Shown in pieces: positions 19,153 through 43,732 of a stretch of DNA of 64,000 nt. How positions within the stretch are numbered: the stretch's first letter is position 1; the number at the start of each line of letters is the position of its first letter. The stretch lies in assembly GCF_007995015.1 (NCBI RefSeq), contig NZ_VORB01000001.1, forward strand, positions 310,001 to 374,000, read 5' to 3'. This DNA comes from Luteibaculum oceani. Its GTDB lineage: Bacteria > Bacteroidota > Bacteroidia > Flavobacteriales_D > Luteibaculaceae. The notes under the pieces are model-generated. The model was given only the letters and a program-made list of their open reading frames with translations, was not told where the DNA came from and did not search any database. A program made the position numbers and the translations under genes.

Positions 19153-19578
19153 ATGGACTACAACGAATTATTCTCTCAAGAAATCCTACCTCACCCTGGA
19201 GCCAAGATTAAAACTGATATTTCTGGTATACAGTGGTTTTCACCGGATGGGTTGTTTATTTCCGTTCCTTGGAAGAACGTGCCGGAATCTACTATAGAAT
19301 TTATCAAGGAAAGTGAACGGCAATGGGCAATAGATCATGGGGATGAAAAAATTGCCTGGCTAACCATTGTAAACCCTCAAACTCGAAGCTCAAAGGAAGT
19401 TAGAGACTACATGGCCGAGATTTTGCCTAAATACATTAAAGCATTGGCCATGGTTAACTATTCTCCTCTTGGCCGGATGGCTGCAAATCTATTTTTCGGG
19501 ATTAAAAGGCAAGATTATCCAGTTAAGATGTTCTCCAACGTAGAATCCGCCCTTAAGTGGATTAAACCCTATCTATAA
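19153..19578 (+). CDS. STAS/SpoIIAA-like domain protein
   Basis: A 141-residue cytoplasmic protein. The C-terminal half carries the pattern R-x-Y-x-A...I-K-A-x-A-x-V...SPLGR...N-x-F-x-G, then P-V-K-M-F and A-L-x-W-I. This is characteristic of the Bacteroidota STAS/SEC14-like family (sometimes labelled DUF7793) built on a SpoIIAA-like fold. Such proteins are usually found beside kinases and response regulators, as here, 23 nt before a PAS histidine kinase gene. A role as a signalling partner or anti-sigma-like switch is inference. No phosphorylatable serine can be assigned with certainty. Confidence 0.6.
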   Translation: MDYNELFSQEILPHPGAKIKTDISGIQWFSPDGLFISVPWKNVPESTIEFIKESERQWAIDHGDEKIAWLTIVNPQTRSSKEVRDYMAEILPKYIKALAMVNYSPLGRMAANLFFGIKRQDYPVKMFSNVESALKWIKPYL

Positions 19579-19601
19579 ATTAGAATGACTATCTTTTAAA
19601 C

Positions 19602-21425
19602 ATGGTAAATGGTGAATCAAATAATGGGCCCTTAATCCAACTTCAGAAAAGGCTAGAGGCTGCTATTTCTGTGGGAGCGCTTAGTCCGGAAGATTTCCCA
19701 GAATTCTCCCCCACATTTTGCGCACTGTTAACCGAAAAGCTACATTCTAGTATACATCTTACAGAGCGTAAAAAGCGGTTAGAAAACATATTGGATGTAT
19801 TGCTAGAATACAGCAAACTAGACTTTTCGAAATCCGCCACAATTTCAGAAAAAAACGACGAAATAGACGCAATAGCTCTTGGCTTAAATACCCTTGGAGA
19901 AGAGATTACCTACTACAAAAACCAATTAGAAGAAAGTAACCAGGCCCTTGAAATGTCACAGCGTCTTGGTAAGGTCGGGAGCTGGATTTATGATGAACCA
20001 AGCGGGAAAGTTTATTTATCAAAATCACTGCAGGATATATACGGTTATCCAGAATCTGAATTCGATGACTTCTGGAAATTTATAAATCGGTCAGTTCAAG
20101 AAGACCAAGAATTGCTAATAAATACCGTTAAAAAAGTCCGGGCAGATCATAAACCTTTTACCATTCACCATAGAGCTAAAAAACCAAATGGTGAAATCAT
20201 TTATTTAGAATCAAGAGGCGAAGTAAGGCTTAAGGAAGGGAAACTACATAAAATCCAAGGTTCAACCATGGATATCACCTACATGGTGTCTCAGCAAAAG
20301 GAGTTAGTTAACCTTAATAATCTATTGCATGAAAAACAGAAATTGTTAGAAAATGCACAGCGTATTGCGAAAATTGGTAGTTGGAAATGGGAAATTAAAA
20401 CGAACCAAATAACATGGTCTAAGGCATTATACGAAATATATGAAGTACCCGATAAAACACCTCTTTCACTTGAGGCCTTTCAAAAACTTTTGCATCCAGA
20501 TGACCAAGGAAAGTTGAATGCTGCCATACAAAAATGCATAGAATCGGGTGAACCCTATGTGGTAAAACACAGAATTTTATGTGGTGACCAAGTAAAGTGG
20601 TTAGAAGGTAGGGGCGAAAGAATATTAAAGGACGGGGAGCTATTTGCACTGCAAGGCACTGGACACGAAATAACGGAACTGGTAGAAAACCAAATTCGTT
20701 TGGAGGAGCTCAACAAAACCCTAGAGAAAAAAGTAAAATCGAGAACAGAAGAACTCGAGGCGTTTACCTACAGTGTATCTCACGATTTAAGAGCCCCAAT
20801 CAGAGCAATAAATGGTTTTGCTGAAATGATTCTAGAGGATTTTGAAAAAGATCTGGACCCTGAAGCAAAAAGGAAGCTGGGAGTCATTAAAAATAACGCC
20901 TTTAAAATGGGGCAGCTAATTGAAAATTTATTGGCCTTTTCGAGGTTAAGTAAATTCAAACCCAAATTCGAAACCGTTAATTTAAATGCGGTTTTAAAAA
21001 GCAGTTGGGAAACCTGCCTAGAACACAATTCTCATTCGGAAAATGTAAAAGTTGAAATTGCCGAACTGCCTTCGATTTATGGCAACGAAAAACTGCTGGA
21101 GCAGGTATTTATTAACCTTTTGGGCAATGCTATAAAATACTCCTCCAAGGAAGACAAACCCGTAATAACAGTATCCCATGAAGCTTGTGATAAAAACCAC
21201 ACCATTACCGTTTCTGATAACGGAATAGGATTCGATCCAAAATTGTCCGATAAATTATTTAGCGTTTTTGATAGATTACACTCCGATAATGATTTTAAAG
21301 GCTTGGGTGTGGGGCTTGCCATGACCAAAAGAATACTTGACAAACATCAAGCTTCCATTTGGGGCGAATCACAACCAAACCAAGGCGCAAAGTTTAAAAT
21401 TGCATTTCCAAAAACCCTCTTATGA
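19602..21425 (+). CDS. Cytoplasmic PAS-PAS histidine kinase
   Basis: 607 residues with no membrane segment. There is a helical N-terminal region (1-110) and two PAS/PAC domains (about 118-235 and 250-365) that are clearly duplicated, sharing QRLGKVGSWIYD and QRIAKIGSWKWE. A linker helix leads to HisKA with phospho-acceptor H394 in SVSHDLRAPI, then HATPase_c with NLLGNAIKYS, DNGIGF and GLGVGLAMTKRI. The HisKA flavour (HDLRAP, SRL spacing) is that of phytochrome-like/Rcp1-partner kinases. Its stop overlaps the next start by 4 nt (ATGA), so the single-domain REC protein is the obvious phosphate acceptor. The sensed signal is unknown. Confidence 0.92.
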   Translation: MVNGESNNGPLIQLQKRLEAAISVGALSPEDFPEFSPTFCALLTEKLHSSIHLTERKKRLENILDVLLEYSKLDFSKSATISEKNDEIDAIALGLNTLGEEITYYKNQLEESNQALEMSQRLGKVGSWIYDEPSGKVYLSKSLQDIYGYPESEFDDFWKFINRSVQEDQELLINTVKKVRADHKPFTIHHRAKKPNGEIIYLESRGEVRLKEGKLHKIQGSTMDITYMVSQQKELVNLNNLLHEKQKLLENAQRIAKIGSWKWEIKTNQITWSKALYEIYEVPDKTPLSLEAFQKLLHPDDQGKLNAAIQKCIESGEPYVVKHRILCGDQVKWLEGRGERILKDGELFALQGTGHEITELVENQIRLEELNKTLEKKVKSRTEELEAFTYSVSHDLRAPIRAINGFAEMILEDFEKDLDPEAKRKLGVIKNNAFKMGQLIENLLAFSRLSKFKPKFETVNLNAVLKSSWETCLEHNSHSENVKVEIAELPSIYGNEKLLEQVFINLLGNAIKYSSKEDKPVITVSHEACDKNHTITVSDNGIGFDPKLSDKLFSVFDRLHSDNDFKGLGVGLAMTKRILDKHQASIWGESQPNQGAKFKIAFPKTLL

Positions 21426-21847
21426 TAATTGATAAAACGGTAGTGTTAGTAGAAGATTCGCCCGAAGATGCGGAACTAATAAAACGCGCGATTGAAAAAT
21501 CTGGCTTTCAAGGTGAATTCAAATGGTTCTCAAACGGTCCCGATGCTTTGAATTACCTCAGCTTAAAAAAGGATCTTGCTAAACTCTCGGTGGTTATTCT
21601 TGATTATAAAATGGATGGCCTTTCGGGCAAAGATGTTTTAAAGCAAATCAGAACCAACCCTATATCTAAAAACTTACCAGTGGTAATGCTAACCTCTTCC
21701 GACGAATCATCAGATGTTGAGGAATGTTACGGTCTAGGAGTAAACAGTTATGTTGTAAAGCCCAACCATTTTAGCCAATTTAAATCGGTAATTTCCCATT
21801 TAAGTGAATATTGGGTTGGAATAAATAGAGCCCCTAATGTTGGATAA
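21422..21847 (+). CDS. Single-domain response regulator (Rcp1-like)
   Basis: A stand-alone receiver of 141 residues with no output domain. Acidic pocket residues E11 and D12, phospho-acceptor D61 (VVILDYKMDG), T/S switch in VVMLTSSDE and K in VVKPN are all in place. The length and the 'VEDSPEDAELI' opening resemble Rcp1, the partner of phytochrome-type kinases. It overlaps the upstream kinase by 4 nt and the downstream REC-kinase by 11 nt. It probably acts as a phosphate shuttle or through protein binding, not DNA binding. Confidence 0.92.
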   Translation: MIIDKTVVLVEDSPEDAELIKRAIEKSGFQGEFKWFSNGPDALNYLSLKKDLAKLSVVILDYKMDGLSGKDVLKQIRTNPISKNLPVVMLTSSDESSDVEECYGLGVNSYVVKPNHFSQFKSVISHLSEYWVGINRAPNVG

Positions 21848-23279
21848 AAAGCATGAATTAATCGTACTTTTTTTAGAAGATTCCGATGAGGATTATACCC
21901 TAATTGTGCGTGCCTTGGAAAAAGGGCATTTTAAGATAATACCCAACAGAGTAGACAGTTTTGAAAAATTTAAAGAGCAGGTTACCTTCAATCCACCTGA
22001 CATCATTATTTCGGACTACAGCCTGCAAGGATTCACAGGAATTGATGCATTAAATTTCATAAAGGAAAATAACTTCGACGCCCCTTTTGTGGTTGTTAGC
22101 GGCTATATCGGTGAAGAAAAAGCCGTGGAGTTCTTAAAGCTTGGTGCTAAGGACTACATCAGCAAAGAAAGTCTGGAGAAACTTCCTATTGCCCTAGAGC
22201 GGGTGATGCACGAAGTGCGGTTATCCTCAGAAAAAAAATTAACACAACGGAAATTAGAAGCCGAAATTGAGCGGAACAAGAAGCTGGTTACTGCTATGAG
22301 TGAGGGCTTGGTTCTTCTTGACGACAGAAACCAAATTATTTTCACCAACCGCGCATTTCAAAAAATGATAGGATACTCAGAGGGGGAATTAAACAAAATC
22401 CGCTGGGTTCAATTATTAAAAAATCCGCCTGAATTTGTTCCACTTATAAGTAGAACAGAGGGAAGAAGAGAGGTAGAATTACTCAATAAATTTGGAGATT
22501 CAGTTTGGGTGGAAATCAGTCTATCGGAAATTTATGATGGCGATTCGAGACAAATTATTAAGGTAATTAGCGATAAAACCGCAGAACGGGAGTCGGAGGA
22601 AAGACTAAAAGAGTTGAACTCGGAAATGGAGCAACTAATTTACCGAGCCTCTCATGACTTAAGGGGGCCCATCTCCTCTATGGAAGGCCTTCTTGAAAAT
22701 CTAAAGTTAACTGGAATAGACAATGAAATTGCAGAGGCGTTCGAGGAAATGATTGACGATGCCTATCAAATTCTTGACAGTCTTGCTTTAGTGACCAAAT
22801 ACCAACACAACCCCCTTAATGTAGAAACCATTTTCATTAAATCCATGCTTGTGATTATGTGCGAAGAATACTTTTCGGACCTATCTAACAAGATTAAATT
22901 TGACTTGGAAATAATGGATTTGTATACAGACAAAGGCGCGTTTGAAACCATTTTAAGAAACTTAATGGATAACATTTTAAACCACGCGTACACGGAAGGG
23001 AAAAAACTGGAGGTGAAGTTTTCATCTAAAAGAATTAAGGACTACATCCTGTTCTGTGTGGAGGACAATGGGCCTGGAATCTTACCTCAACACCAAGAAA
23101 AAATATTCAACATGTTTTACCGAGCGAACCCAGCAATACATTCAACGGGACTCGGGTTATATCTATCAAAAAAAATAGCCAAGCGGCTTGGAGGTGATTT
23201 ATCTTTGGAGTACTCTGGAGACCGTGGAACAAGATTTTGTCTCGCCATTCCAGACCTTACTACTGAGAAAAAATCATGA
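21837..23279 (+). CDS. REC-PAS-histidine kinase
   Basis: 480 residues: an N-terminal receiver (about 5-125; LEDSDEDY opening, phospho-site in IIISDYSLQG), a short coiled coil, one PAS domain (about 148-255), HisKA with H273 (YRASHDLRGPI), then HATPase_c (NLMDNILNHAY, EDNGPGI, GLGLYLSKKIA). A receiver at the N-terminus makes this a kinase controlled by phosphorylation from another kinase, here presumably the 607-residue protein. It overlaps both flanking receiver genes (11 nt and 4 nt). No membrane segment. Confidence 0.9.
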   Translation: MLDKKHELIVLFLEDSDEDYTLIVRALEKGHFKIIPNRVDSFEKFKEQVTFNPPDIIISDYSLQGFTGIDALNFIKENNFDAPFVVVSGYIGEEKAVEFLKLGAKDYISKESLEKLPIALERVMHEVRLSSEKKLTQRKLEAEIERNKKLVTAMSEGLVLLDDRNQIIFTNRAFQKMIGYSEGELNKIRWVQLLKNPPEFVPLISRTEGRREVELLNKFGDSVWVEISLSEIYDGDSRQIIKVISDKTAERESEERLKELNSEMEQLIYRASHDLRGPISSMEGLLENLKLTGIDNEIAEAFEEMIDDAYQILDSLALVTKYQHNPLNVETIFIKSMLVIMCEEYFSDLSNKIKFDLEIMDLYTDKGAFETILRNLMDNILNHAYTEGKKLEVKFSSKRIKDYILFCVEDNGPGILPQHQEKIFNMFYRANPAIHSTGLGLYLSKKIAKRLGGDLSLEYSGDRGTRFCLAIPDLTTEKKS

Positions 23280-23704
23280 ATCTAAAACGCATTATTCTTA
23301 TTGACGATAATCGGGTTGACAATCTGGTGAATCGTAAAATGTTGGCGGCTTGTGGCTTTTCCTCTCCAATATTAATTTTTGATAATCCAAGAGAGGCCTT
23401 CCAATGGTTTTGCTCCCCAGAAGGATCAAACCAAGATGATGCAAGAAGCACGCTGGTATTACTCGATATTAACATGCCCGACCTTTCTGGCTTCGATCTG
23501 CTAAGCAAGTTAGAAAAAGAGCACCCAATCGGGTTTCCAGATTATTTAATCCTTATGCTCACTTCTTCAAGTGATATTGCGGATCAAATAAGAGCCAGCA
23601 ACTATTCTAGGGTTATGGGTTATTTCCATAAACCACTAAATCCAACAAAAATCAATCAGTCCTTACTTCCTTTACTGGGGAGTTTATTTGGTAAAGCATC
23701 ATAA
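23276..23704 (+). CDS. Single-domain response regulator
   Basis: A 142-residue receiver, last gene of the phosphorelay set. Pocket D10-D11, phospho-acceptor D64 (VLLDINMPDLSG), switch serine/threonine in LILMLTSSSD and the lysine in YFHKPLN are visible. No effector domain. It starts inside the previous stop (ATGA). The relay thus has two kinases and three receiver domains but no DNA-binding or enzymatic output within the operon. Confidence 0.92.
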   Translation: MNLKRIILIDDNRVDNLVNRKMLAACGFSSPILIFDNPREAFQWFCSPEGSNQDDARSTLVLLDINMPDLSGFDLLSKLEKEHPIGFPDYLILMLTSSSDIADQIRASNYSRVMGYFHKPLNPTKINQSLLPLLGSLFGKAS

Positions 23705-25034: not shown

Positions 25035-27860
25035 ATGTCATCAAAAATTCCGGCCTTAAAAAGCATTCGATCCGAACTAAGTAAAGATTGGAATGGTATT
25101 TGGGATAACTCCGCGCTGGCTATCGGATTGTATGCCACCGATGCTTCCGTTTATTCTGAAGACCCTTTGGCCGTAGCAATACCAAAAGACATAGATGCAT
25201 TTAAAGAGGTGGTGAGGGTAGCGCTAAAGCATAAAACGCCAATCATTCCAAGAGGAGCCGGAACATCGCTTGCTGGGCAAGTAGTTGGAAATGGGTTGGT
25301 TGTTGATAGTTCTAAATACCTAAAAAAGGTCATAGAAATAAATGCCAAAGAAAAATATGCCTGGGTAGAACCCGGTGTCGTGCGGGATGAATTAAATTTT
25401 GAGCTGGACAAACACGGGCTTTATTTTGGCCCAGAAACTTCAACAACTAATCGCTGCACCATAGGAGGGATGATAGGAAATAATTCCTGTGGATCTCGCT
25501 CCATTGTTTATGGATCCGTTCGCAACCATCTACTGGAATTAAAATTTATTGGTGCCGATGGAAAGGAGCACCATATTGGAAGAGGTATAAAACCCGATCC
25601 TTTTGTAGAGAATTTATGTAATAAGTTAAAGGGCTTTCTAGATGACCAAACCTTAGCTGAAATTAAAGCGGTCTATCCGAAGTCAAATATTTCTAGAAGA
25701 AATCATGGTTATGCCCTCGACTGCGTTTTACAAGAAAACGGGGAACTAGACCTATGCAAGTTATTTGCAGGTAGCGAAGGAACATTAGGTGTTATTACCC
25801 AGGCTAAAATTAATCTTTCCCCTCTCCCAGGAAAACATCAGGCGCTGCTTTGCCTTATGTGCAGCAGTGTCGATTTCGCCCTAAAGACCAATATTTCAGC
25901 TCTTAACTACAATCCCACCGCTTCTGAGCTTATAGATGACAACATAATTCGCTGTACAGAGAATCAAATTGGACAGCAGGAAAACCGTTTTTTCATCAAG
26001 GGTAATCCCGGAGCCATATTAGTGGTTGAATTCTGTGAAGAGGAGGAGAATATTTTGGAGCAGAAATTAAATGGTTTAACCAAGGAGGTGGTGCATCTTG
26101 GATTAATAGCCGACCATTCCATCGTTCAAGGCGATGACATGAATAGGGTTTGGAACCTACGTAAAGCAGGTCTGGGACTTCTATCTAATATACCTGGAGA
26201 TGCTAAACCTGTTGCGGTAGTAGAAGATACTGCTGTTGACCCCATTGACTTGCCTGCATATATCCAAGAGTTTAATGTGGCACTGCAAAAGAGAAATCTA
26301 AGTGCCGTTCATTATGCGCATGCAGGAAGTGGAGAACTTCATTTAAGACCCGTATTGGATTTAAAATCGGATGCGGGCAGAAAGGCATTTTTTGATATCG
26401 CAATGGATGTTGCCCTTTTGGTAAAGAAATACCGCGGTGCTTTAAGTGGAGAACACGGTGATGGCCGACTTAGGGGGTATTTCATAAAAACCATGTATGG
26501 CGAAAGGATTTACAAACTCTTCCAAGATGTTAAGCGATTATGGGATCCAGAACATCTTTTCAATCCTGGAAAAATTGTTGAAACGCCACATCCAATTGAA
26601 AATCTACGGTTTTCTGTCCATTACCATAAACCGGAGTTAAATACTGGGTTTCACTTCAGGCAATTTAAAAGCTTGCAAGGGGCAGTTGAGCTTTGCAATG
26701 GTTCTGGAGACTGTGTTAAAAGTGAAATAATTGCAGGAACCCTTTGTCCGAGCTATCAGGCCACAAAAGATGAAAAAGACAGCACACGGGGAAGAGCGAA
26801 TATTTTAAGACGAACTCTAGCTAAGGGAAACCCAGACTTAAACAATCCAGAATTAAAGAAGGCCTTAGAATATTGTATTTCCTGCAAAGCTTGTAAAAGA
26901 GAATGCCCCAGTAATGTGGATATGGCCAAAATAAAGGCAGAAGTGTCCTACCAGAACTCCAAAAATTCATTTAAACTAGCCCAGTGGGCAATTTCAAGAG
27001 GTTATGGTGTGCTTTTAAAAGCCAGAGCACTTAGAGCTCCAGCTAGCCTCCTTTTCCCATTATTAAGAGGCCCGTTACAAATCTCAAGCAAAAGATCGGC
27101 GCCAAACTTTTCATTTGAAGCAATTCCCTTTATACCATCAAAATCTGGTATATGGATATATGTGGATGAATTTACTGCTGTTGAATCTCCCAAATTGGTA
27201 ATCGAGCTGCAAAAAATTACTCAATTTTTAAAGCTCGATGTTGGTATTCTCCCTCCATTTGAAAGTGCTCGTTCCGCCATATCCATGGGAGATTTGAAAC
27301 ATGCAAAAAAGCTTATACACAACAATATAAACTTGCTAAAAAAGTATGAGGTTAATGAGCTTATTGGAATAGAACCCAGCGCTTATTTGGGATTAAAAGA
27401 GGAGTGGTTAGATCTATGTGGGGATAATCATTTAAAGTTATGCCAAGAATTGGCAGGTAAGATTAAAGGTTATGACTCCTTTCTTTTGGAACACTTTTCC
27501 GATCACGGAACTCCGAAATTTAATGACCTGGAGTCCAAAAAACCTATTCAAATCCATGAACACTGTCACCATAAAGCCCTGGTTGGAAAACCCCAGGTTC
27601 AGGAGATTCTAAAAATTTTGGGATATCAAGAGGTGGAGACCTTAGATTCGGGATGTTGTGGAATGGCGGGGTTTTTCGGCTATCAGAAAAAAAATTACCA
27701 AATCTCAAAAGCGATTGCAAATAACAAATTACTTCCCAAGATTAAACAAGATAGCGTGTTAATTGCCGCTGGAACAAGCTGCAGACATCAAATTAAAGAT
27801 CTTAAAAATCGTAAAGCCCTGCACCCCATTACCTTTATACATCGGACTCTGGGACTTTAG
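25035..27860 (+). CDS. FAD-linked oxidase / Fe-S (CCG) dehydrogenase, YdiJ-like
   Basis: 941 residues combining a GlcD-like flavoprotein with an iron-sulfur reductase. The N-terminal FAD_binding_4 domain (about 40-270) has PRGAGTSLAGQ and a substrate/FAD loop with GGMIGNNSCGS. The FAD-oxidase C domain follows (about 270-530; HAHAGSGELHLRP, SGEHGDGR). The C-terminal part has one divergent cluster region (CNGSGDC... LCPSY), a 4Fe-4S motif C614-x2-C-x2-C-x3-C-P, and a CCG domain with C874-C875 (SGCCGMAGFFG). This is the plan of E. coli YdiJ (D-2-hydroxyglutarate dehydrogenase) and Dld-II-type D-lactate dehydrogenases. A D-2-hydroxyacid substrate is likely; which one is open. Its end overlaps the convergent kinase gene by 26 nt. 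Confidence 0.92.
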   Translation: MSSKIPALKSIRSELSKDWNGIWDNSALAIGLYATDASVYSEDPLAVAIPKDIDAFKEVVRVALKHKTPIIPRGAGTSLAGQVVGNGLVVDSSKYLKKVIEINAKEKYAWVEPGVVRDELNFELDKHGLYFGPETSTTNRCTIGGMIGNNSCGSRSIVYGSVRNHLLELKFIGADGKEHHIGRGIKPDPFVENLCNKLKGFLDDQTLAEIKAVYPKSNISRRNHGYALDCVLQENGELDLCKLFAGSEGTLGVITQAKINLSPLPGKHQALLCLMCSSVDFALKTNISALNYNPTASELIDDNIIRCTENQIGQQENRFFIKGNPGAILVVEFCEEEENILEQKLNGLTKEVVHLGLIADHSIVQGDDMNRVWNLRKAGLGLLSNIPGDAKPVAVVEDTAVDPIDLPAYIQEFNVALQKRNLSAVHYAHAGSGELHLRPVLDLKSDAGRKAFFDIAMDVALLVKKYRGALSGEHGDGRLRGYFIKTMYGERIYKLFQDVKRLWDPEHLFNPGKIVETPHPIENLRFSVHYHKPELNTGFHFRQFKSLQGAVELCNGSGDCVKSEIIAGTLCPSYQATKDEKDSTRGRANILRRTLAKGNPDLNNPELKKALEYCISCKACKRECPSNVDMAKIKAEVSYQNSKNSFKLAQWAISRGYGVLLKARALRAPASLLFPLLRGPLQISSKRSAPNFSFEAIPFIPSKSGIWIYVDEFTAVESPKLVIELQKITQFLKLDVGILPPFESARSAISMGDLKHAKKLIHNNINLLKKYEVNELIGIEPSAYLGLKEEWLDLCGDNHLKLCQELAGKIKGYDSFLLEHFSDHGTPKFNDLESKKPIQIHEHCHHKALVGKPQVQEILKILGYQEVETLDSGCCGMAGFFGYQKKNYQISKAIANNKLLPKIKQDSVLIAAGTSCRHQIKDLKNRKALHPITFIHRTLGL

Positions 27861-30800
27861 TTATTTCTGGATTTGCATTTAAGTACTCCAAAACCTTCTC
27901 TATCTCCTCTGTGAAGTAATTTAAGGTATCCCTGATAGGCGCATTATCGGCAGGTTTTTCCTTTTGTAATTGAAGGCCCTTTGCAAGCTCCACTAAATCT
28001 GATCGCCCAACAAATCCAATTGAGGACTTGAGGGTATGACAAGCCTTTGCAATAGGTTCCCAAGTTTCGGTATTAAGGTTTTCATATATCGCCTTAAGGT
28101 ATCCTGGCGTATCCTCTTTAAAAATATCTATCATTTCATCCACAACATCCTGATCGTTACCCACCATCTCTCGAAGATAGGCTAAGTCTACAGGTTTGTC
28201 TGGCTTCATGTTTTCCGCATTTTTAGCGGGTGAGGCTCCATTATCTTCGTATACAGGAGGGGATTTATCACCTTTCTTTCTTGGTAATTCATTTCCAAGC
28301 TGTTTAAAAACCACTTGGTATAATTCATCCGGTTTAAAGGGCTTAGAAACATAGTCATTCATTCCTGCCTTTAAGTACCTTTCTTTTTCCTCAACCAACG
28401 CGTGAGCTGTTAAGGCTATTATTGGCGTACTTTTTTTGTTTTTCTCCTTAAGCTTTATCTGCTTCATTGCCTCCAACCCATCCATTATCGGCATTTGGAT
28501 ATCCATCAGAATGAGATCAAATGTGTATTCATCGTACAGGTCTACAGCCTCACTTCCGTTTGAAGCAACTTTTACATCAAACCCAACATCGCGTAGCAGT
28601 TTTGCTGTTATAATCTGATTATTAAGATTATCCTCGGCGATTAACACAGAATAACCTTGTCCAGTTTTATGTTCAACATCCACCTTTTCTGAAAGAGATA
28701 AATTCTTCGGATTTCCTTTTTTAATTGGGAATTTCAGGGTGAATTCTGATCCTTTACCTACTTCACTATCTACACTTATTTCACCTTTTAAAATGTTCAG
28801 CAAATTCTTTACAATACTCAGTCCCAACCCACTACCACCATACTTTCTGGTAGTGTCTCCTTCGGCCTGGCTAAAGCTTTGAAAAATACTATTGAGCTTT
28901 TCTTTGGGTATGCCTATTCCAGTATCTCGAACTGCAATTTCTATATCTTGTTTGGTTTTGGTTTCCCTTGCCACAGATACCGAAATAGTGATTTTACCTT
29001 TTTCTGTAAACTTAATGGCGTTGCCGACAAGGTTTATTAGCATCTGATTAATGCGATATGGATCACCTTTGTAGGCCGCATAAACTTTATCATCCCAGTC
29101 TACTTCCAGACCAATATTCTTTTGGGAGGCTTTCAGTTTAAACAGCTTGTAAACTTGTTGGATAGTAGACTTCAGATCGAAATCGGTATTCTCCACTTTT
29201 ACTTTGCCCGCTTCCAGTTTCGAGAAATCCAGAATATCATCAATTAGTACTAACAGGTTCTCAGCCGATGAGTATATGTTGGTAGCATAATCCTTAAGCT
29301 CATTATCCACATTTGCCTCCATTAAAAAGCGGCTAAACCCAAGTATGGCATTCATCGGAGTTCTAATTTCGTGACTCACATTGGCAACGAAATTCTGCTT
29401 CAATTTTGCGGTTTCCTCAGCCTTTTCTTTGGCTTGCTTTAATTCTTCCTGTATTTTGTAATCTAGAGTTTCATCCTGTATAACTCCAATAATTCCTGGA
29501 TTAGCATTGGCGGTAATCCTCGATCTAGCGGAACAGCTTATCACTATTTCTCGCCCATCATCAATTCTATTTACATGAAGGAGCTTATGGAACGGTTTTC
29601 CTTCCTCAATAAGCGTTATAAATGCCTGAGTAAGTTCTTTTCTATCGTTTACACTTACAAGTCGCAGTAAATCTGCATCGACTTTTATTTTTTGCTTTGG
29701 GATACCGAGAAGTTCGAATACCGCATCAGAGCAATAAATCTCATCTAGCTTAATGTCGTATTCAAAAGAACCAATCTGAGCAAAGGCCTGCGCATCATTG
29801 AGCATATCCTCACTACGTTTAAGAATTTCCTTTTGACGAAATTCTTCAGTGATATCTCTAATTACGTGTGCGGCTCCTAGCAACCTCTTATTCTGGTCTC
29901 TTATGGAGTTGAAGGTTACATTCTGATATCCCTCTCGAGTACCATCAATATTTACCTTTAACTCAAAGCTGAACTCCTGTCCTTTTAGAGCCTTTTCCCA
30001 GTACGGTTCTAGGACTCTTTTATCTGGTTTTGCCTCAGAGAATATGGTCTTAATATTATCTCCAGCTTGGATATTAGTATCATGTTCCTTGTCGAAGTAT
30101 GCCTTAAAAGCACGGTTAAATGCTATAAAGTTGTAGTTAATATCAACGGCTGCAATTAGGTCTTGAGAGGAGTCTATTATTCCCTGTAATCGCTGGTAGG
30201 ATAGATTAAGCTCTCTGGCAGCATTACGCAATTTCCGTTCGTTTTCCAGGCGTTGAGAAACATCCCTAACACTAGAAAGCACCAATAACCCTTTTTCGGT
30301 TTGTACTGGACTTAAGCTTATTTCTACAGGAAAAATTTCACCATTTTTTCTTTTGGCATATAATTCTGAGCCCTGTCCCATAGGTCGAGCTTGAGGGTCT
30401 TTGAAATACTCTTTTCTATGGTGTTTATGTGCATCTTTATAACTATCTGGCACAAGAATGTCGATGGACTTTCCTAATAACTCTTCTCGAGGATAACCAA
30501 AGGTTTCTTCTGTTTTCCGGTTAACGAGAAATATTTTTCCTTTTTCGTCCATGATAATGGTGGAGTCCGATCCCATTTCGAGGAAGGATTGAAACCTTGC
30601 ATCGGAGAATTTCCTTTCCGAAAGATTTCGTACCAAAAGGGTAAAGCCTAGAATGTCGTCTTTATCTGGGGTTAACTGCGGATTTATTATAACATGACCC
30701 CAAAAATCTTGACCATCCTTTACTTTCATCCAACCAAACCATTCTTTCTTCTTTTTACTCTGAAAGGCATTTTCGAATATTTCTTCGGGTGAGGTTTTCT

Positions 30801-31869
30801 CTATTCCAGAAGGTTTTAAAAAGCGAAGAAAATCTTGTCCACTAACCTCCTCAATTTTAAAATTATAAATACGCTCAGCTCCTTTATTCCAAAGTCGTAT
30901 TCTATTATTAGCGTCTAATCCAATAATAGCAAACTCGGAAATTTCCTCACTGATGCCACTAAACCTAGATTCCATTTCATATCCCGGAACAAAACCTGTT
31001 TTCTTTTCGGCGTTTTCAGCCACCAATAGCATGGAGTCCAATTCTCCCTTTTCATTGGCAATAGGGAGTGCTTTAACAGAAAACCAAGTGTAGACTCCAG
31101 ATTTCCCCTTCAAACGCACATTTCCAAGCCATTCGTATTTAGGTTTTTCAACGGCTTCCTCCCAAAGGCTTAAAAGATTTTGATATTGATCGGTATGAAC
31201 GAAAGTCCAAATTGACTTTCCTTTCAAATCAGTTGGAAACCATCCTAGTTGTTCGAATACCGCAACGTTTACATCTTCTATTTTTCCTTCGAGATCGGTA
31301 AAAGCTATAATCTCCGAGGAATGGTTGGACAAAATTTGGTAAACCTTACCTGAGTCTAATTTCCTGGTTATGGTGGTATCCGATTCACGGACTATGCCAT
31401 GAAGAACTTCGTTGTTTTTTGCATCAAGGGTTATTTTACCTTGGTAATCCAACCAACCAATACTACCGTCTCCCTTTACTATTCTATGTCTTATTCTATA
31501 AGATCCCTTTTCCTGAACCGCCTTGTTCACCACTTTATTCATGGTTTCAACATCATCGGGATGAACGAATTCAAAATATTTCTGAGGCGTGATTTTTTCG
31601 TTTTTAGGAAGTCCGAAAATGTTGAAAAGAGCTTCATTCCAATCTACTTTTTCTGTTCCAACCCACCAAGAAAACATTCCAATGGAGGAGCCAGCATCAG
31701 AATTTGAACTCTTACCGTCTTTTTCCTTTAAGTACTGAGCAGCAGCGGCAAGCTTTTCTTTATCGGCAGTATTAATTTTACCCCTCTTAACAATATCATC
31801 GATGAGGGAAGCAACTGACTCTAAATCAGAAAAGTTATTATCTAGTTTGGACTCTTTTTTGGTTGCCAT
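27835..31869 (-). CDS. Multi-PAS hybrid histidine kinase with REC and HPt
   Basis: 1344 residues, no membrane segment. Roughly six PAS/PAC modules fill residues 45-810. They are followed by HisKA with H833 (NVSHEIRTPMN), HATPase_c (NLVGNAIKFTE, DTGIGIP, GGSGLGLSIV), a receiver with D1123 (LILMDIQMPIMDG) and a C-terminal HPt with H1278 (ACHTLKSSIG). This is a full four-step phosphorelay (H-D-H) in one cytosolic chain, whose HPt can pass phosphate to a separate receiver. The obvious acceptor is the REC protein that begins the same operon. It overlaps the glycosyltransferase gene by 32 nt. The many PAS domains suggest redox, light or small-molecule sensing; no cofactor residue can be assigned. 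Confidence 0.93.
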   Translation of the reverse strand: MATKKESKLDNNFSDLESVASLIDDIVKRGKINTADKEKLAAAAQYLKEKDGKSSNSDAGSSIGMFSWWVGTEKVDWNEALFNIFGLPKNEKITPQKYFEFVHPDDVETMNKVVNKAVQEKGSYRIRHRIVKGDGSIGWLDYQGKITLDAKNNEVLHGIVRESDTTITRKLDSGKVYQILSNHSSEIIAFTDLEGKIEDVNVAVFEQLGWFPTDLKGKSIWTFVHTDQYQNLLSLWEEAVEKPKYEWLGNVRLKGKSGVYTWFSVKALPIANEKGELDSMLLVAENAEKKTGFVPGYEMESRFSGISEEISEFAIIGLDANNRIRLWNKGAERIYNFKIEEVSGQDFLRFLKPSGIEKTSPEEIFENAFQSKKKKEWFGWMKVKDGQDFWGHVIINPQLTPDKDDILGFTLLVRNLSERKFSDARFQSFLEMGSDSTIIMDEKGKIFLVNRKTEETFGYPREELLGKSIDILVPDSYKDAHKHHRKEYFKDPQARPMGQGSELYAKRKNGEIFPVEISLSPVQTEKGLLVLSSVRDVSQRLENERKLRNAARELNLSYQRLQGIIDSSQDLIAAVDINYNFIAFNRAFKAYFDKEHDTNIQAGDNIKTIFSEAKPDKRVLEPYWEKALKGQEFSFELKVNIDGTREGYQNVTFNSIRDQNKRLLGAAHVIRDITEEFRQKEILKRSEDMLNDAQAFAQIGSFEYDIKLDEIYCSDAVFELLGIPKQKIKVDADLLRLVSVNDRKELTQAFITLIEEGKPFHKLLHVNRIDDGREIVISCSARSRITANANPGIIGVIQDETLDYKIQEELKQAKEKAEETAKLKQNFVANVSHEIRTPMNAILGFSRFLMEANVDNELKDYATNIYSSAENLLVLIDDILDFSKLEAGKVKVENTDFDLKSTIQQVYKLFKLKASQKNIGLEVDWDDKVYAAYKGDPYRINQMLINLVGNAIKFTEKGKITISVSVARETKTKQDIEIAVRDTGIGIPKEKLNSIFQSFSQAEGDTTRKYGGSGLGLSIVKNLLNILKGEISVDSEVGKGSEFTLKFPIKKGNPKNLSLSEKVDVEHKTGQGYSVLIAEDNLNNQIITAKLLRDVGFDVKVASNGSEAVDLYDEYTFDLILMDIQMPIMDGLEAMKQIKLKEKNKKSTPIIALTAHALVEEKERYLKAGMNDYVSKPFKPDELYQVVFKQLGNELPRKKGDKSPPVYEDNGASPAKNAENMKPDKPVDLAYLREMVGNDQDVVDEMIDIFKEDTPGYLKAIYENLNTETWEPIAKACHTLKSSIGFVGRSDLVELAKGLQLQKEKPADNAPIRDTLNYFTEEIEKVLEYLNANPEITKVPESDV

Positions 31870-33328
31870 ATTCCGGGGCGTTCACTTGTCTTGCTTCTGC
31901 GGTAAACCCTTTTCTTTCGAACTTCTCCCAGGTTTTTTTACCAACCAAGAAATCGTAATTTCCACGGAGGGCGCAGTACAAAATGTAGGGGTGAAATACG
32001 AAAGGTTCCGTTAACGCCGCAGCAAACAATTTTAATATGTCCCTTAATCTATGGTATTGATAAAAGGTTAACTCCTCTATTAAAAGTGCAATCATTGAAT
32101 AGGTTACACTAAAGGAATACACCAAAAATATCATGGCCAAGAAATAAGGTATATTCAATACTCCAAACAATGCTAAGTAAAAGGTAATTACAATTCCAAA
32201 AATTTCGAAAAGTGGTGCTAACCACTCGAAAATTACCCAGTAAGGGTAGGATAAAAGTCCCATTCTTTTATATCGGGGATTGAATAGAATGTCCTTGTGC
32301 ATTCGCAACGTTTCAATGGTACCTCTGGTCCATCTATTTCTTTGTTTAGCCAAAGATTTCCACGATTCTGGCACCTCTGTCCAGCAAAGTGGATCTGGAA
32401 CAAAGCTTACTTTGTAGGCCAGTTTTTTACGCATCATATATTTACGCATCCGGATAACGATTTCCATATCCTCGCCTACTGTACGCTCATCATAACCCTT
32501 TACCTTTAGAGCTAATTCACGATCAAAAATCCCAATTGCCCCGGAAATTAGCATCATCCCATCGAAGTAGGTCCAACCTACTCTACCTAGGAGAAAGGTT
32601 CTAAGGTATTCCATGGCTTGGTATCGCGCAATCATCTTTTTAGGAGCCCTAACCCCTAATATTTTTCCATCTTGTATTTCACAGCCATTTGCTACCCTTA
32701 CCACACCTCCAGAAGCAATTACTTTTTTGTCGGTTTCATCGACAAATGGTTTGGTAAGTTTTAATAACGCATCTTCTGTTAAGATACAATCCACATCGAT
32801 GCAGGTAACATAGGGCATTTCTGAAATGTTAAGCCCAACATTTAATGCATCGGCCTTACCTCCATTCACTTTATCAACCACAATAAGTCGGTTAAAACTT
32901 CTATTTCTTGATCGGTAAACCGCTTTAACCTTTTGGGTTTTTACCGTTTGCCTTACAGCAAAATAATCGGCTTGTAAATCAAATGCCTCAATACATTTTT
33001 GAAGTGTGTCGTCGGTACTGCCGTCGTTAATAACTATTACGTTGAAGTTTGGATATTTTAAGGCTAATAAGCTTCGAACATTTTCAACTACAGTTTCCCC
33101 TTCGTTGTATGCTGGAGCTAATACAGAAATTCCTGGAGCAATATTCGACCTCAAAAGGGAATCTGTATCGGTAAATGATTTCCTTTTAAAGTAGGTCCTA
33201 ATAGTTGCGATCGAGAGGATGGAAACCGTTAGGTAGCTCAACATCACAAAAACGGCATAGAAAAATATACCCGTTTCGAATGTTGATATTATTATCCTTA
33301 TGAATTCACTAATGTTTCCGCTCATCAA
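31838..33328 (-). CDS. Processive family 2 glycosyltransferase (PgaC/NodC-like), membrane
   Basis: 496 residues. A membrane helix (about 20-42) precedes the GT2 domain, and three to four membrane helices follow (about 350-450). The processive-synthase motifs are complete: D102 (VINDGST), DxD D178/D180 (CIDVDC), E286-D287 (VGEDMEI) and Q329-x-x-R-W333 (QRNRW). This is the signature of poly-beta-GlcNAc, chitin-oligosaccharide, hyaluronan and cellulose synthases. There is no PilZ domain, so direct cyclic-di-GMP control is not indicated. Overlaps with HEAT (20 nt) and kinase (32 nt) genes imply coupled translation. Product sugar unknown. Confidence 0.92.
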   Translation of the reverse strand: MMSGNISEFIRIIISTFETGIFFYAVFVMLSYLTVSILSIATIRTYFKRKSFTDTDSLLRSNIAPGISVLAPAYNEGETVVENVRSLLALKYPNFNVIVINDGSTDDTLQKCIEAFDLQADYFAVRQTVKTQKVKAVYRSRNRSFNRLIVVDKVNGGKADALNVGLNISEMPYVTCIDVDCILTEDALLKLTKPFVDETDKKVIASGGVVRVANGCEIQDGKILGVRAPKKMIARYQAMEYLRTFLLGRVGWTYFDGMMLISGAIGIFDRELALKVKGYDERTVGEDMEIVIRMRKYMMRKKLAYKVSFVPDPLCWTEVPESWKSLAKQRNRWTRGTIETLRMHKDILFNPRYKRMGLLSYPYWVIFEWLAPLFEIFGIVITFYLALFGVLNIPYFLAMIFLVYSFSVTYSMIALLIEELTFYQYHRLRDILKLFAAALTEPFVFHPYILYCALRGNYDFLVGKKTWEKFERKGFTAEARQVNAPEYGNQKRVQTR

Positions 33329-34412
33329 TAACGTGCTTTAGAAATAGAGCTCTGTTACCCGCTCTTTGTAACATTTCGCTCGTAATTTTTCCATTCGACA
33401 ATGAATACAAACTTCTAGCAGCCGCTTTAGCAACCCTGTATTCTTTTACCTCAAGGAGCTTAAATAAAAAGTCAATATGATCATAGGGGTTTCCGATTTC
33501 CCCAATGGCATCTACCACTGCAACTTTAACTTCAGTGGAGTACGAATTAAATTGTTGAAGAAATTTGGGAACTATACCATCAATTTCAAGATGCTTTGCA
33601 GTTTTCGCTAACTCCATAAGGACGTCATCGTCGTTATGGTTTACCATTTTATATAACTTTTCTGCTCCCTCTACCTGATTAAAATGGGCAATTAGACGCA
33701 GCCCAAAAAGAACTACAGATTTATTTTTTTCATCCAACAAATAATAGAACTGGGGGATGTTTGCTGCTTCAAGTTTATCAAGTTCCTGCGTAATTCTAAT
33801 TTGTTGCCAGCGACTTAAAGGATACCTAAGGTCTTGTAGAAACCCCAGTGCTCTTTCTCCTGCTAAGTCAATAGCCGCATATTGTGCTTCTGCTCTAAGA
33901 ATTGGATTAGGGTGATCGGTATACTTCATAATGGTAGGAAGAGACTCCCTAACATCCATTTTCCCTAATTCTTGAAGAACAAAAGCCTTATCCTCCCACT
34001 GCCCTCTTTTAAGGTCCCTGAGCGCATATTTTCTGAGGTTTAACTCGTGATAAAACGTGGTTAATACCTTATCACTTTCCCCCATTATGTTTTCCTTGGC
34101 TTTGAGAATAACGTGCACCAAGGTTTCCCTCTTCACCTTATCAAAACCCTTGCTGGATATAGACTCTACAATTTTCTCGTAGCCCTTGGAGTACGATGCA
34201 TAAGTGTCTTCGAAAAGAATATTGGTAATCAGCGTTTCGTACTTATCTGTAAAACGTTCTATTTTACTGTTTCGTCGCTGTGTAGTTTTCCTACTGATGA
34301 AAATAAAAATAATAAGCGCAATAGAGGTGAATAAAAGAACAGACCCCATCCATGCCGCTATCCGGGTAGGATAGTGCGAGTTGAAAAAGTAAAATTCTAG
34401 CCAACTCGACAT
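33309..34412 (-). CDS. Membrane-anchored HEAT-repeat protein
   Basis: 367 residues. One membrane helix near the N-terminus (about 18-38, GSVLLFTSIALIIFIF) is followed by a basic segment and a helical solenoid. Repeats of the type 'L..ALG.IG.P..I..L..LL...E..VA.AA..AL' occupy about 130-360; the clearest are KVAVVDAIGEIGNP and YRVAKAAARSLYSL. HEAT solenoids bind other proteins. Lying between the receiver and the glycosyltransferase, and overlapping the latter by 20 nt, it is a good candidate for the physical link that lets phospho-REC control the synthase (inference). Confidence 0.85.
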   Translation of the reverse strand: MSSWLEFYFFNSHYPTRIAAWMGSVLLFTSIALIIFIFISRKTTQRRNSKIERFTDKYETLITNILFEDTYASYSKGYEKIVESISSKGFDKVKRETLVHVILKAKENIMGESDKVLTTFYHELNLRKYALRDLKRGQWEDKAFVLQELGKMDVRESLPTIMKYTDHPNPILRAEAQYAAIDLAGERALGFLQDLRYPLSRWQQIRITQELDKLEAANIPQFYYLLDEKNKSVVLFGLRLIAHFNQVEGAEKLYKMVNHNDDDVLMELAKTAKHLEIDGIVPKFLQQFNSYSTEVKVAVVDAIGEIGNPYDHIDFLFKLLEVKEYRVAKAAARSLYSLSNGKITSEMLQRAGNRALFLKHVIDERKH

Positions 34413-34417
34413 ATTTG

Positions 34418-34780
34418 TTATTGCGCTATTTTTCTAATCCTAACCAACAATTCGTTGGGACTAAATGGTTTTGTCATGAAGTCGTCCGCTCCAATTTCAA
34501 ATGCTTGAAGAACAGTGTCTTCCTGCCCCAATGCGGTAAGCATTATTACGGGAATATCCTTTGTGCTGGGGTTGTTTTTTATTCTTTCCAACAACTCCAT
34601 TCCAGTAACGAATGGCATAATGATGTCTGCCAAAACTAAATCGTACTTATTTCGCTGGATTAACTCCCATGCATCCCGACCATTTTCGGCGGTGTCTACT
34701 TCATGACCTTCTTTTGATAACTTAAAAGACAAACTTTTAAGCATCATTCTTTCGTCTTCTGCAACTAATATTTTTGCCAT
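34418..34780 (-). CDS. Single-domain response regulator of the glycosyltransferase operon
   Basis: 120 residues from ATG 34780 (MAKILVAEDE); the frame opens 12 codons earlier, but that start is out of line with receiver families. Pocket E8-D9, phospho-acceptor D52 (LVLADIIMPFVTG), switch T in VIMLTALG and K in FMTKPFSP. No output domain. First gene of the four-gene operon, 5 nt before the HEAT gene. It probably receives phosphate from the HPt of the hybrid kinase and acts by protein contact. Confidence 0.9.
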   Translation of the reverse strand: MAKILVAEDERMMLKSLSFKLSKEGHEVDTAENGRDAWELIQRNKYDLVLADIIMPFVTGMELLERIKNNPSTKDIPVIMLTALGQEDTVLQAFEIGADDFMTKPFSPNELLVRIRKIAQ

Positions 34781-34876
34781 TGTATTACGATGAGGAACTA
34801 AGATATTTTCTATCAACAGTAAATCTACATTTTAAACAACATATTATTCACATCTTGCGGGGGAAAACCCCATAAT

Positions 34877-41166: not shown

Positions 41167-42213
41167 TTAAACGAAACGATAGATATCATCGAATCTCTCG
41201 GGCTTAATCACTCGAATTTCTCGTCCGTTGATTTCGATTATCCCTTCTTCCTTAAAGTCGGATAATACCCTAATTAATGTTTCGGTTGCCGTTCCAGCCA
41301 AGTGGGCCAAATCGTCTCTGGCAACAGAGATTATATTATGGTCTTGCTTAGAAAGGAAGTTCTTAATGGAGTCGGCTACTCTTTCTCTTACCGAAGAATA
41401 AGCCAATTTTAATAGTCTCGCCTCCTTTTCCGCAAGGTTGTTACTCAACAATTTGATAAAGAGATTAGCTATATCTCTATGTTGCTTCATTAGGTCTAGA
41501 AACTGCGTTCTTCCAATGATTGCAATTTCCGTTTCCTCCAGTGCCGTCGCAGTATCTGGATAAGGTTCTCCTTCAATAATAGAGGTATACCCAAAATAAT
41601 CGTTTGGTGCGGCTAAAGTGGTTATAAGCTCCTTACCGGTTTCGCTTATTCTCCAAAGCTTAACCTTTCCTTTGTAAATAAAGAACAGATTATTGCTGCT
41701 ATCACCTTCGCGATAAATATCCTCCTTTGCCTTAAAAGTTTTGTGCGTGGTATTTTCCTTTAACTCCTGTAAGGCCTCTTTACCTCTAACATCGTGAACA
41801 AGATTTTCCAGTGCTTCTACTCCCTCACCACGAATTTGGTATTGCTCGTGCTTTTTCAAACGTGTTTCTACTGCATTCAGCAGTTCCATTTCTTCAAATG
41901 GCTTGGTGAGATAATCGTCCGCCCCAAGGTTCATTCCCTTTCTGATATCACTTTTATCCGCCTTGGCAGACAAATAAATGAAAGGAATATTTGCCGTTTC
42001 GGGGTTTTTGCTCAACATATATAAAACGCCGTATCCATCGAGACCTGGCATCATAATATCACAAAGTATAAGGTCTGGACTAACGTCCTTTGCCTTTTTA
42101 ACCCCCTCATAACCATCGGATGCAGGAATAACATCATAACTGGCTAATTCTAATACCTCACAAATATTTTCCCTTACATCTGGGTTATCCTCAATGACTA
42201 ATATTTTCTTCAT
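41167..42213 (-). CDS. Response regulator with CRP/FNR-type effector (REC-cNMP-HTH)
   Basis: 348 residues. Receiver (1-120) with E8-D9, D52 (LILCDIMMPGLDG), T/S in FIYLSAKAD and K in YLTKPFEE. A cyclic-nucleotide-type beta barrel follows (about 150-265; FKAKEDIYREGD, LFFIYKGKVKLW), then a long dimer helix and a CRP winged helix (about 275-345) with recognition segment LAHLAGTATETLIRVLSDF. The barrel lacks the classical cAMP R-S pair, and no cysteine cluster is visible for an Fe-S centre, so phosphorylation is the likely input. Overlaps its kinase by 23 nt. The only DNA-binding regulator in the window and a candidate for binding the CRP/FNR-like boxes noted here. Confidence 0.92.
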   Translation of the reverse strand: MKKILVIEDNPDVRENICEVLELASYDVIPASDGYEGVKKAKDVSPDLILCDIMMPGLDGYGVLYMLSKNPETANIPFIYLSAKADKSDIRKGMNLGADDYLTKPFEEMELLNAVETRLKKHEQYQIRGEGVEALENLVHDVRGKEALQELKENTTHKTFKAKEDIYREGDSSNNLFFIYKGKVKLWRISETGKELITTLAAPNDYFGYTSIIEGEPYPDTATALEETEIAIIGRTQFLDLMKQHRDIANLFIKLLSNNLAEKEARLLKLAYSSVRERVADSIKNFLSKQDHNIISVARDDLAHLAGTATETLIRVLSDFKEEGIIEINGREIRVIKPERFDDIYRFV

Positions 42214-43732
42214 TTTTAAATTTTTTGGGGAATTGAACAGTAAAGGTAGTTCCTTCTTGTTCTCTGCTAAAAAAAGAAATTTTTCCGTGTATTAGGTCAA
42301 CATATCTTTTTACAATGTTGAGACCTAGACCTGTGCCTTGTAAATTAAATGCGTTTTTGGCTCTAAAAAACCTTTCGAATAATTGTGCTTGTTCCTCCTC
42401 AGGAATTCCAATTCCATAGTCTTGAACCTCAAGAAAAACCCTATTCCTAATTTCCCAAACCTTAACCATAATTTCCTGGTTTTCGTGAGAATACTTTATG
42501 GCGTTGGTAAGTAAATTGATAATCACATTTCTAAGAATATTTGGATCTTGAAATACCGGTTGATCATCTGGCAATACCAACTGAAACTCTTGACCATCTT
42601 TAAGGTGCTCCTCTAGATCGTCAACCATATTGCGCACCAATTGACTGAAGTTGAATTTACTTGGGTGCAATTCTACTTTACCTTCTTCCAGCTTATCGAT
42701 CGATAAAAAGTCGTTTAGGATAGAAGTTAAATTCTTTACGGAAGAGGCTATCTTTTGTCCATGCTTTTTGATTTTTTCCGCCCCATTTGGGTGGTCCAAA
42801 TACCTGAGCATCAAATTTATAGAGGATAGTATAGTACTTAGCGGTGTTCTGAATTCATGTGACGCCATACTCACAAAGCGAGATTTTAACTCATTGAGTT
42901 GACGCTCTTTTTCAAATGCCCTTTTTATTTCCTTTTCTGCCCTTTTTTGTTGCGTGTTGTTTATTTCAACAAGCAGAATCCGATCAATTGCACCGGTTGC
43001 CGACTCTAATCCAGAGGCGTTTAAAATGTAGTGGTTATCCTTATGAGAAATTTCGAAGGTTTGATTCTTGCCATCAAGAACCCCTTGGAGTTTCTCCTTA
43101 ATTTCGTCGTGGAGCCCAAGCGGCAATCGATCTAGATAATTGGTCCCCACCAACTTTTCACTGGTAATTCCCATGCGGTAAAGCTCCTTACCCTCTGCGA
43201 ATAGATAGTTGAAGTCTCGATCGAAAACACTGATAACACCGTTGGGAAAGTTTCGAGATACTATTCGGTACAATTCTTCGCTAGAACCAAGCGCTTTGTT
43301 TTTACGATCTAAAATTGGGGCAGCAATCCCACCATTGTGATTTTTATTATTAGACCTTGAACTAATATCTTTTAATGTTATTAGGAAATTACTCTCACCT
43401 TCATCACGGAGTAAATTAAACCCAGCAATTACAGGATACTGCTCCGATTCTTCGTTTAGTACAAATAGTTCTTGTCTTAACTCTGCATCCCGGTTACCGG
43501 AAATCAAGCTTTTTAGAATGGACCCAACAAGGATTCTCTGTGATCTTATAAAAAGTCGCTGTACTTTGAGAGAGTCAAAGTATTTCTTGTCGAAGCCCAA
43601 ATAATTTATGGCAGCTTCGTTTACCTCAAGAATCTCACCCCCTTCATTACATAGAAATGCAGGGTTTGTATTTTGGTGAAACAAGAATTTGCTGAGGTCG
43701 GTGGTTAGCAAATTGTGTTTTAACAGCGACAA
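42191..43732 (-). CDS. PAS-PAS histidine kinase, cognate to the REC-CRP regulator
   Basis: 513 residues, no membrane helix. Two PAS domains (about 15-125 and 155-265), a linker coiled coil, HisKA with H292 (MASHEFRTPLST) and HATPase_c (NLLTNAIKYSH, DYGIGIP, GTGLGLNIV). The 'ASHEFRTPLS' form is common in Bacteroidota kinases paired with REC-CRP or REC-only partners. The 23-nt overlap with the regulator gene makes the pair clear. The PAS cofactor is unknown; the second PAS lacks an obvious haem-ligand histidine that I could assign with confidence. Confidence 0.92.
   Translation of the reverse strand: MSLLKHNLLTTDLSKFLFHQNTNPAFLCNEGGEILEVNEAAINYLGFDKKYFDSLKVQRLFIRSQRILVGSILKSLISGNRDAELRQELFVLNEESEQYPVIAGFNLLRDEGESNFLITLKDISSRSNNKNHNGGIAAPILDRKNKALGSSEELYRIVSRNFPNGVISVFDRDFNYLFAEGKELYRMGITSEKLVGTNYLDRLPLGLHDEIKEKLQGVLDGKNQTFEISHKDNHYILNASGLESATGAIDRILLVEINNTQQKRAEKEIKRAFEKERQLNELKSRFVSMASHEFRTPLSTILSSINLMLRYLDHPNGAEKIKKHGQKIASSVKNLTSILNDFLSIDKLEEGKVELHPSKFNFSQLVRNMVDDLEEHLKDGQEFQLVLPDDQPVFQDPNILRNVIINLLTNAIKYSHENQEIMVKVWEIRNRVFLEVQDYGIGIPEEEQAQLFERFFRAKNAFNLQGTGLGLNIVKRYVDLIHGKISFFSREQEGTTFTVQFPKKFKNEENISH

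Follow-up and report, generated by a model that had tools for sequence, protein, structure and literature searches.

A lone receiver and a membrane-anchored HEAT protein as candidate controllers of a polysaccharide synthase in Luteibaculum oceani and other Bacteroidota

Introduction

How might a phosphorelay that lacks a transcription factor control a polysaccharide synthase that lacks a PilZ domain? The question is raised by a four-gene operon of Luteibaculum oceani, located within a 64,000-nucleotide stretch of contig NZ_VORB01000001.1 (positions 310,001 to 374,000, hereafter the window). An initial annotation of this DNA proposed that a phosphorylated lone receiver (REC) binds a HEAT protein, which in turn gates a family 2 glycosyltransferase (GT2), and that this arrangement replaces the usual cyclic-di-GMP/PilZ logic. 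CheY-type single-domain receivers act by protein-protein contact, and the receiver described here shares with them its single-domain form, an intact phospho-acceptor and the absence of an output domain; it differs in what it is proposed to act on, a HEAT protein that is anchored in the membrane and encoded beside a polysaccharide synthase. Known synthase-dependent polysaccharide systems comprise 4 parts, namely the synthase, a c-di-GMP-binding regulatory domain or co-polymerase, periplasmic modification enzymes, and a TPR-plus-pore component (PMC7112194). We have used domain searches, structure models, a receiver tree and gene-neighbourhood surveys to ask which of these parts the operon and its relatives supply, and what occupies the position of the c-di-GMP-binding subunit.

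Results

The operon and its products

The 4 genes lie on the minus strand and span positions 34816 to 27835 of the window (Table 1). They are separated by a gap of 5 bp at the REC/HEAT junction and overlap by 20 bp at HEAT/GT2 and by 32 bp at GT2/kinase; the genes that flank them are unrelated metabolic or transport genes. For the receiver, the ATG at 34780 is a more probable start codon than the TTG at 34816, and numbering from this ATG makes the phospho-acceptor D52. Open reading frame calls and Pfam searches bore out the gene set of the initial annotation (lone receiver, membrane HEAT protein, processive GT2, and PAS hybrid kinase with REC-HPt), and its statement that no DNA-binding output exists agrees with a domain search in which none of the 4 products contained a DNA-binding domain.

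Table 1. Coordinates of the operon genes and of associated genes discussed in the text
Feature	Position	Strand	Basis or remark
Lone receiver (REC)	34418..34780, 120 aa from ATG; 34418-34816, 132 aa from TTG	minus	Pfam Response_reg, residues D52/T82/K104, tree
Membrane-anchored HEAT solenoid, 367 aa	33309..34412	minus	Pfam HEAT_2, hydropathy, AlphaFold2
Processive GT2 polysaccharide synthase, 496 aa	31838..33328	minus	Pfam/NCBIfam, motifs, model, Foldseek
Soluble PAS-rich hybrid histidine kinase with REC and HPt, 1344 aa	27835..31869	minus	Pfam, residues, no TM segment
TPR-YaiO protein, 438 aa, the only YaiO of the L. oceani genome	C2:316541 (= L049:15966-17282)		PF19413; on another contig than the operon
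Membrane protein of ~390 aa, examples from relatives	L141:7770-8960; L147:1843-3030; L037:13155-14327

The GT2 product matched Pfam Glyco_tranf_2_3 (E 4e-21), showed no PilZ domain in Pfam, and carries the motifs DGS102, DVD178, GED285 and QRNRW329 between an N-terminal TM segment and C-terminal TM helices. Its model (pLDDT 85.9) matched hyaluronan, chitin and cellulose synthases in Foldseek searches; the D, D, ED and QxxRW motifs together with this fold match are those of an inner-membrane processive synthase. The closest NCBIfam relative was the PgaC/IcaA poly-GlcNAc synthase family, TIGR03937, but the score of 138.7 bits fell far under the curated cut-off of 422.3, and the operon has no PgaD; the enzyme was not assigned as a PgaC/IcaA-type PNAG synthase.

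The hybrid kinase contains, by Pfam, several PAS domains followed by HisKA, HATPase, Response_reg and Hpt, and hydropathy analysis revealed no TM segment in it. Where 6 PAS domains had been annotated, NCBIfam scored 5 sensory-box stretches, so that 5 are supported and a sixth is plausible. Kinase residues H833, D1123 and H1278, and D52 of the lone receiver (ATG numbering), are all in place exactly as claimed. The gene pair thus has the constitution of an HPt-type multistep phosphorelay, in which a kinase-REC-HPt protein with its H-D-H residues is accompanied by a separate receiver with a conserved D. Elsewhere in the genome (contig C8, L156:906-4383), another hybrid kinase that matches Hpt precedes a lone receiver, and the two may form a parallel phosphorelay. 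Within the window, the interval 41167-43732 encodes a PAS histidine kinase and, beside it, a single protein that combines a receiver with a cNMP-binding domain and a Crp-type HTH.

The HEAT protein matched Pfam HEAT_2 (E 1e-16). Hydropathy analysis placed one strong TM segment at residues 17-44, followed by an alpha-solenoid, and the AlphaFold2 model was of high confidence (pLDDT 93.6). Foldseek searches with this model returned generic HEAT/ARM solenoids only, and a sequence search of the PDB found mostly designed repeats and no functional relative. Information about topology came from homologues: L028 carries a LysM domain N-terminal to its TM helix (E 5e-8), L137 has a weaker one, and the N-terminal extensions of some others showed weak SPOR-like matches. 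LysM and SPOR-like domains are normally periplasmic. Their location ahead of the TM helix therefore suggests an N-out/C-in orientation in which the HEAT repeats should be cytoplasmic, like the receiver and the catalytic domain of GT2.

Conservation of gene order

So that neither HEAT nor REC would influence the choice of loci, named genomes were searched with the GT2 profile only. The best 80 GT2 loci were retained, a choice that favours close orthologues, and 74 of them had enough upstream DNA to be tested. In every one of these 74 loci, GT2 was directly preceded by a HEAT gene of the same orientation. The 2 genes overlapped or were no more than 20 bp apart in 109 of 119 pairs. The loci came from genomes of Flavobacteriia, Chitinophagaceae, Sphingobacteriaceae, Cytophagales and Bacteroidales; Flavobacterium johnsoniae (L102), an experimentally tractable species, is among the organisms that carry the module. 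The REC-HEAT-GT2 order, for which the initial annotation had proposed such a survey, is therefore conserved across the Bacteroidota and is not confined to this genome. With the HEAT protein as query, matches came from 23 of the 149 genomes searched within the class, and a HEAT profile matched 56 of 396 genomes of the phylum. Among 60 genomes of the nearest relatives only one other contained HEAT, from which it follows that the system is patchy in the host's order. A contig-level genome search with the HEAT protein alone gave no match, the protein being too divergent. Two loci, L145 (5737-19068) and L129, contain 2 tandem HEAT-GT2-YaiO sets each, one with a sulfatase-fold partner and one without, which suggests that a single organism makes 2 polymers.

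Homologues of the HEAT protein are only about 17-29% identical to that of the window, as against about 50% for GT2, and the sequence comparisons thus portray a protein that is fast-evolving yet always present. Conservation is highest in the N-terminal solenoid (residues 126-243), where W139, W202, Q204 and N230 are located, and short Flavobacterium homologues do without the C-terminal repeats. We considered whether long HEAT frames of 640-935 aa were HEAT-GT2 or REC-HEAT fusions, and rejected this: they are HEAT proteins with C- or N-terminal extensions. Neither type of fusion occurred among the relatives' loci examined.

The linked receivers and kinases

A lone receiver was located within 6 kb of GT2 in 69 of the 74 testable loci. 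The receiver of the window matched Response_reg with an E of 2e-31, and the phosphorylation residues are nearly invariant among the linked receivers (n=106), with the phospho-acceptor Asp (D52) in 105, T/S82 in 105 and K104 in 106. In a receiver tree, one clade (support 99/91) united 45 of the 46 linked receivers that were sampled, that of the window among them. None of 15 further lone receivers encoded by the L. oceani genome fell within it. Six rows of the tree that were not labelled as linked also fell inside this clade; at least 2 of these are accounted for, since the L036 receiver belongs to a further operon of this kind and that of L145 neighbours a second copy. The single linked outlier, L056, is probably a distant receiver that was misassigned. 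As judged from residues and tree, the window's receiver appears to be dedicated, active-looking and orthologous to the HEAT-GT2-linked receivers. Some HEAT-GT2 copies (e.g. L143, L144, L109 and L124) have no REC nearby, so that REC is not strictly required. Elsewhere in the window, at 19153-23704, lone receivers and kinases lie clustered together, and one of these kinases has a receiver domain at its N terminus. A single lone receiver from this cluster was placed in the tree, where it falls outside the HEAT-linked receivers.

A hybrid kinase adjoins only about half of the loci, and lies directly 5' of REC in 34 of the 74 recovered by the GT2-only scan of named genomes. All 34 of these kinases extend 116-177 aa beyond their REC domain, and 23 show a strict HPt motif in this tail. 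Pfam Hpt was detected in both of the relatives' kinases that were checked, which are from Flavobacterium, with an E of 2e-4 that is just under the gathering score. The kinase-REC-HPt-REC chain is, by these tails and motifs, a recurrent feature. The proposal that the relay is complete within the operon is supported by the intact receivers and the conserved REC-HPt kinases of the relatives. Cross-talk or another phosphate donor is nonetheless possible, as the L. oceani genome has 4 HPt domains and 41 receivers.

A probable outer-membrane partner encoded elsewhere

The initial annotation stated that the operon lacks an export or outer-membrane partner, which is literally true, but the genome has a single candidate for this role on another contig. 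In relatives, a gene for a TPR-YaiO outer-membrane barrel lies between REC and HEAT or downstream, and YaiO is within 7 kb of GT2 in 58 of 74 loci. Of 69 genomes compared, all 36 that carry HEAT also have YaiO, and none of the 33 without HEAT does (Fisher p 2e-20, which overstates the independence of these related genomes). The L. oceani protein scored 161.8 bits against the YaiO outer-membrane family PF19413, for which the gathering score is 23.9. A TPR protein with a putative outer-membrane pore is thus available in trans, and is very probably the export partner of this operon.

On its contig, the YaiO gene is preceded and overlapped by a gene (L049:14831-15997) for a membrane protein with a C-terminal TPR, and a hybrid kinase with HK-REC but no Hpt (L049:10187-12409) lies upstream of the pair. 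Possibly, this neighbourhood is a relocated periplasmic/outer-membrane half of the system. We also considered the membrane-TPR protein as a reduced sulfatase partner and rejected it in that role: the sulfatase profile gave no match, and only the TPR part is similar.

The relatives also encode putative modification enzymes. A membrane protein with a sulfatase fold (PF00884) is linked in 29 of 74 loci and is fused to GT2 in 15 cases; CotH and polysaccharide deacetylase are other partners. The L. oceani genome has no operon-linked modification enzyme, and its sole PF00884 match is unlinked. A membrane protein of ~390 aa without a Pfam match adjoins HEAT-GT2 or YaiO in 16 or more of the 74 loci (examples in Table 1), and is an uncharacterised accessory of the HEAT-GT2-YaiO system.

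Cyclic-di-GMP and known secretion systems

Genome-wide domain searches of L. oceani found no GGDEF and no PilZ domain, and 31 of 36 HEAT carriers lack GGDEF. The idea that c-di-GMP/PilZ logic has been replaced is well supported by these absences. Like the cellulose (Bcs), PNAG (Pga), alginate and Pel systems, the operon and its relatives combine a processive GT2, a TPR plus outer-membrane barrel and, in relatives, modification enzymes, or 3 of the 4 parts recognized for such systems (PMC7112194). Unlike them, they have no PilZ or c-di-GMP-binding subunit, the position of which is occupied by the lone receiver and the membrane HEAT protein, and the barrel is of the YaiO type. The operon would thus work like a classical synthase-dependent exopolysaccharide system without being filed as one. 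The uncharacterised yaiP-yaiX-yaiO genes of E. coli likewise combine a GT2 with a nearby YaiO barrel and putative deacetylase, and YaiP is 26% identical to the GT2 (E 2e-12). However, no HEAT, receiver or kinase is nearby in E. coli, whose YaiO has no TPR domain and resembles that of L. oceani through the Pfam family only, not in direct comparison. We found no description of a REC-HEAT-GT2-YaiO module in the open-access literature, to which our search was confined.

Discussion

In the aggregate, the component list of the system is strongly supported. The reading that we favour, and consider reasonably probable, is that the operon specifies a relay-gated, synthase-dependent polysaccharide secretion system in which REC and HEAT fill the slot of the c-di-GMP co-polymerase and YaiO provides export in trans. 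The operon would represent the cytoplasmic and inner-membrane half of this system. The PAS domains of the kinase would sense a cytoplasmic signal, and phosphate would pass from H833 to D1123, to H1278 of the HPt domain, and on to D52 of the lone receiver. The phosphorylated receiver would then dock on the membrane-anchored HEAT solenoid, and the solenoid would contact and gate GT2 as the latter polymerises and extrudes a glycan, which the TPR-YaiO barrel encoded elsewhere would carry across the periplasm and outer membrane. REC and HEAT would in this way take the post-translational control slot that is held elsewhere by c-di-GMP/PilZ or by PgaD-type subunits. We infer direct gating of the synthase by the phosphorylated receiver through HEAT, and equally the phosphotransfer, the REC-HEAT and HEAT-GT2 contacts, the sign of control, the identity of the polymer and the participation of YaiO in trans.

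A different division of labour, in which HEAT is a constitutive co-polymerase or scaffold with a role like that of PgaD or BcsB, and the receiver regulates otherwise, as a phosphate sink or by kinase tuning and without gating, is in our estimation unlikely. The linkage of HEAT to GT2 is absolute (74/74) while REC is missing near some copies, and the conservation of HEAT peaks in the N-terminal solenoid near the membrane, as expected of a synthase-binding scaffold. Against this, the receivers form one dedicated orthologous clade with conserved phosphorylation residues, and in many operons the receiver sits between kinase and HEAT, an order for which a mere sink has no need. As a few HEAT-GT2 copies are without a nearby receiver, HEAT may be the obligate partner of the synthase and the receiver its usual, though not universal, controller.

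Two further explanations concern the product and the output of the relay. We regard it as improbable that GT2 makes a short glycolipid or a teichoic-acid-like anchor and that the sulfatase-fold partner of relatives is an LtaS-like polymerase. The frequent linkage and fusion of that partner to GT2 speak for such a role, but the QxxRW motif and TM layout are those of processive synthases, the co-occurrence with TPR-YaiO is perfect where that with the sulfatase-fold protein is not, and L. oceani has no linked sulfatase. Moreover, E. coli cellulose synthase also has a phosphoethanolamine transferase partner (BcsA-Bct-G3 entries), so that a modifying role fits better. Mere co-regulation, by which a kinase operon for nutrient or stress responses includes a glycosyltransferase by chance and acts through other transcription factors, seems to us very improbable: any of the 41 receivers of the genome could be the target of the kinase, but the gene order is kept across several Bacteroidota orders while the flanking genes differ, and the neighbours of the 4 genes in the window are unrelated metabolic or transport genes.

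Returning to the relay-gated secretion system, we lean narrowly toward the broader view that it belongs to a Bacteroidota-wide set of secretion machines in which the synthase is under the direct control of a multistep phosphorelay rather than of c-di-GMP, with a lone receiver and a HEAT adaptor that spans the membrane as intermediaries. The system is apparently undescribed, and is widespread in the phylum. Its conserved module has 5 parts (the HK-REC-HPt kinase, lone REC, HEAT, GT2 and TPR-YaiO), and points to a function for YaiO, as well as for a HEAT family that is known to databases only by its repeats. GGDEF proteins are missing altogether from most carriers, and the module offers a concrete and testable account of how these bacteria might switch the production of a surface polysaccharide.
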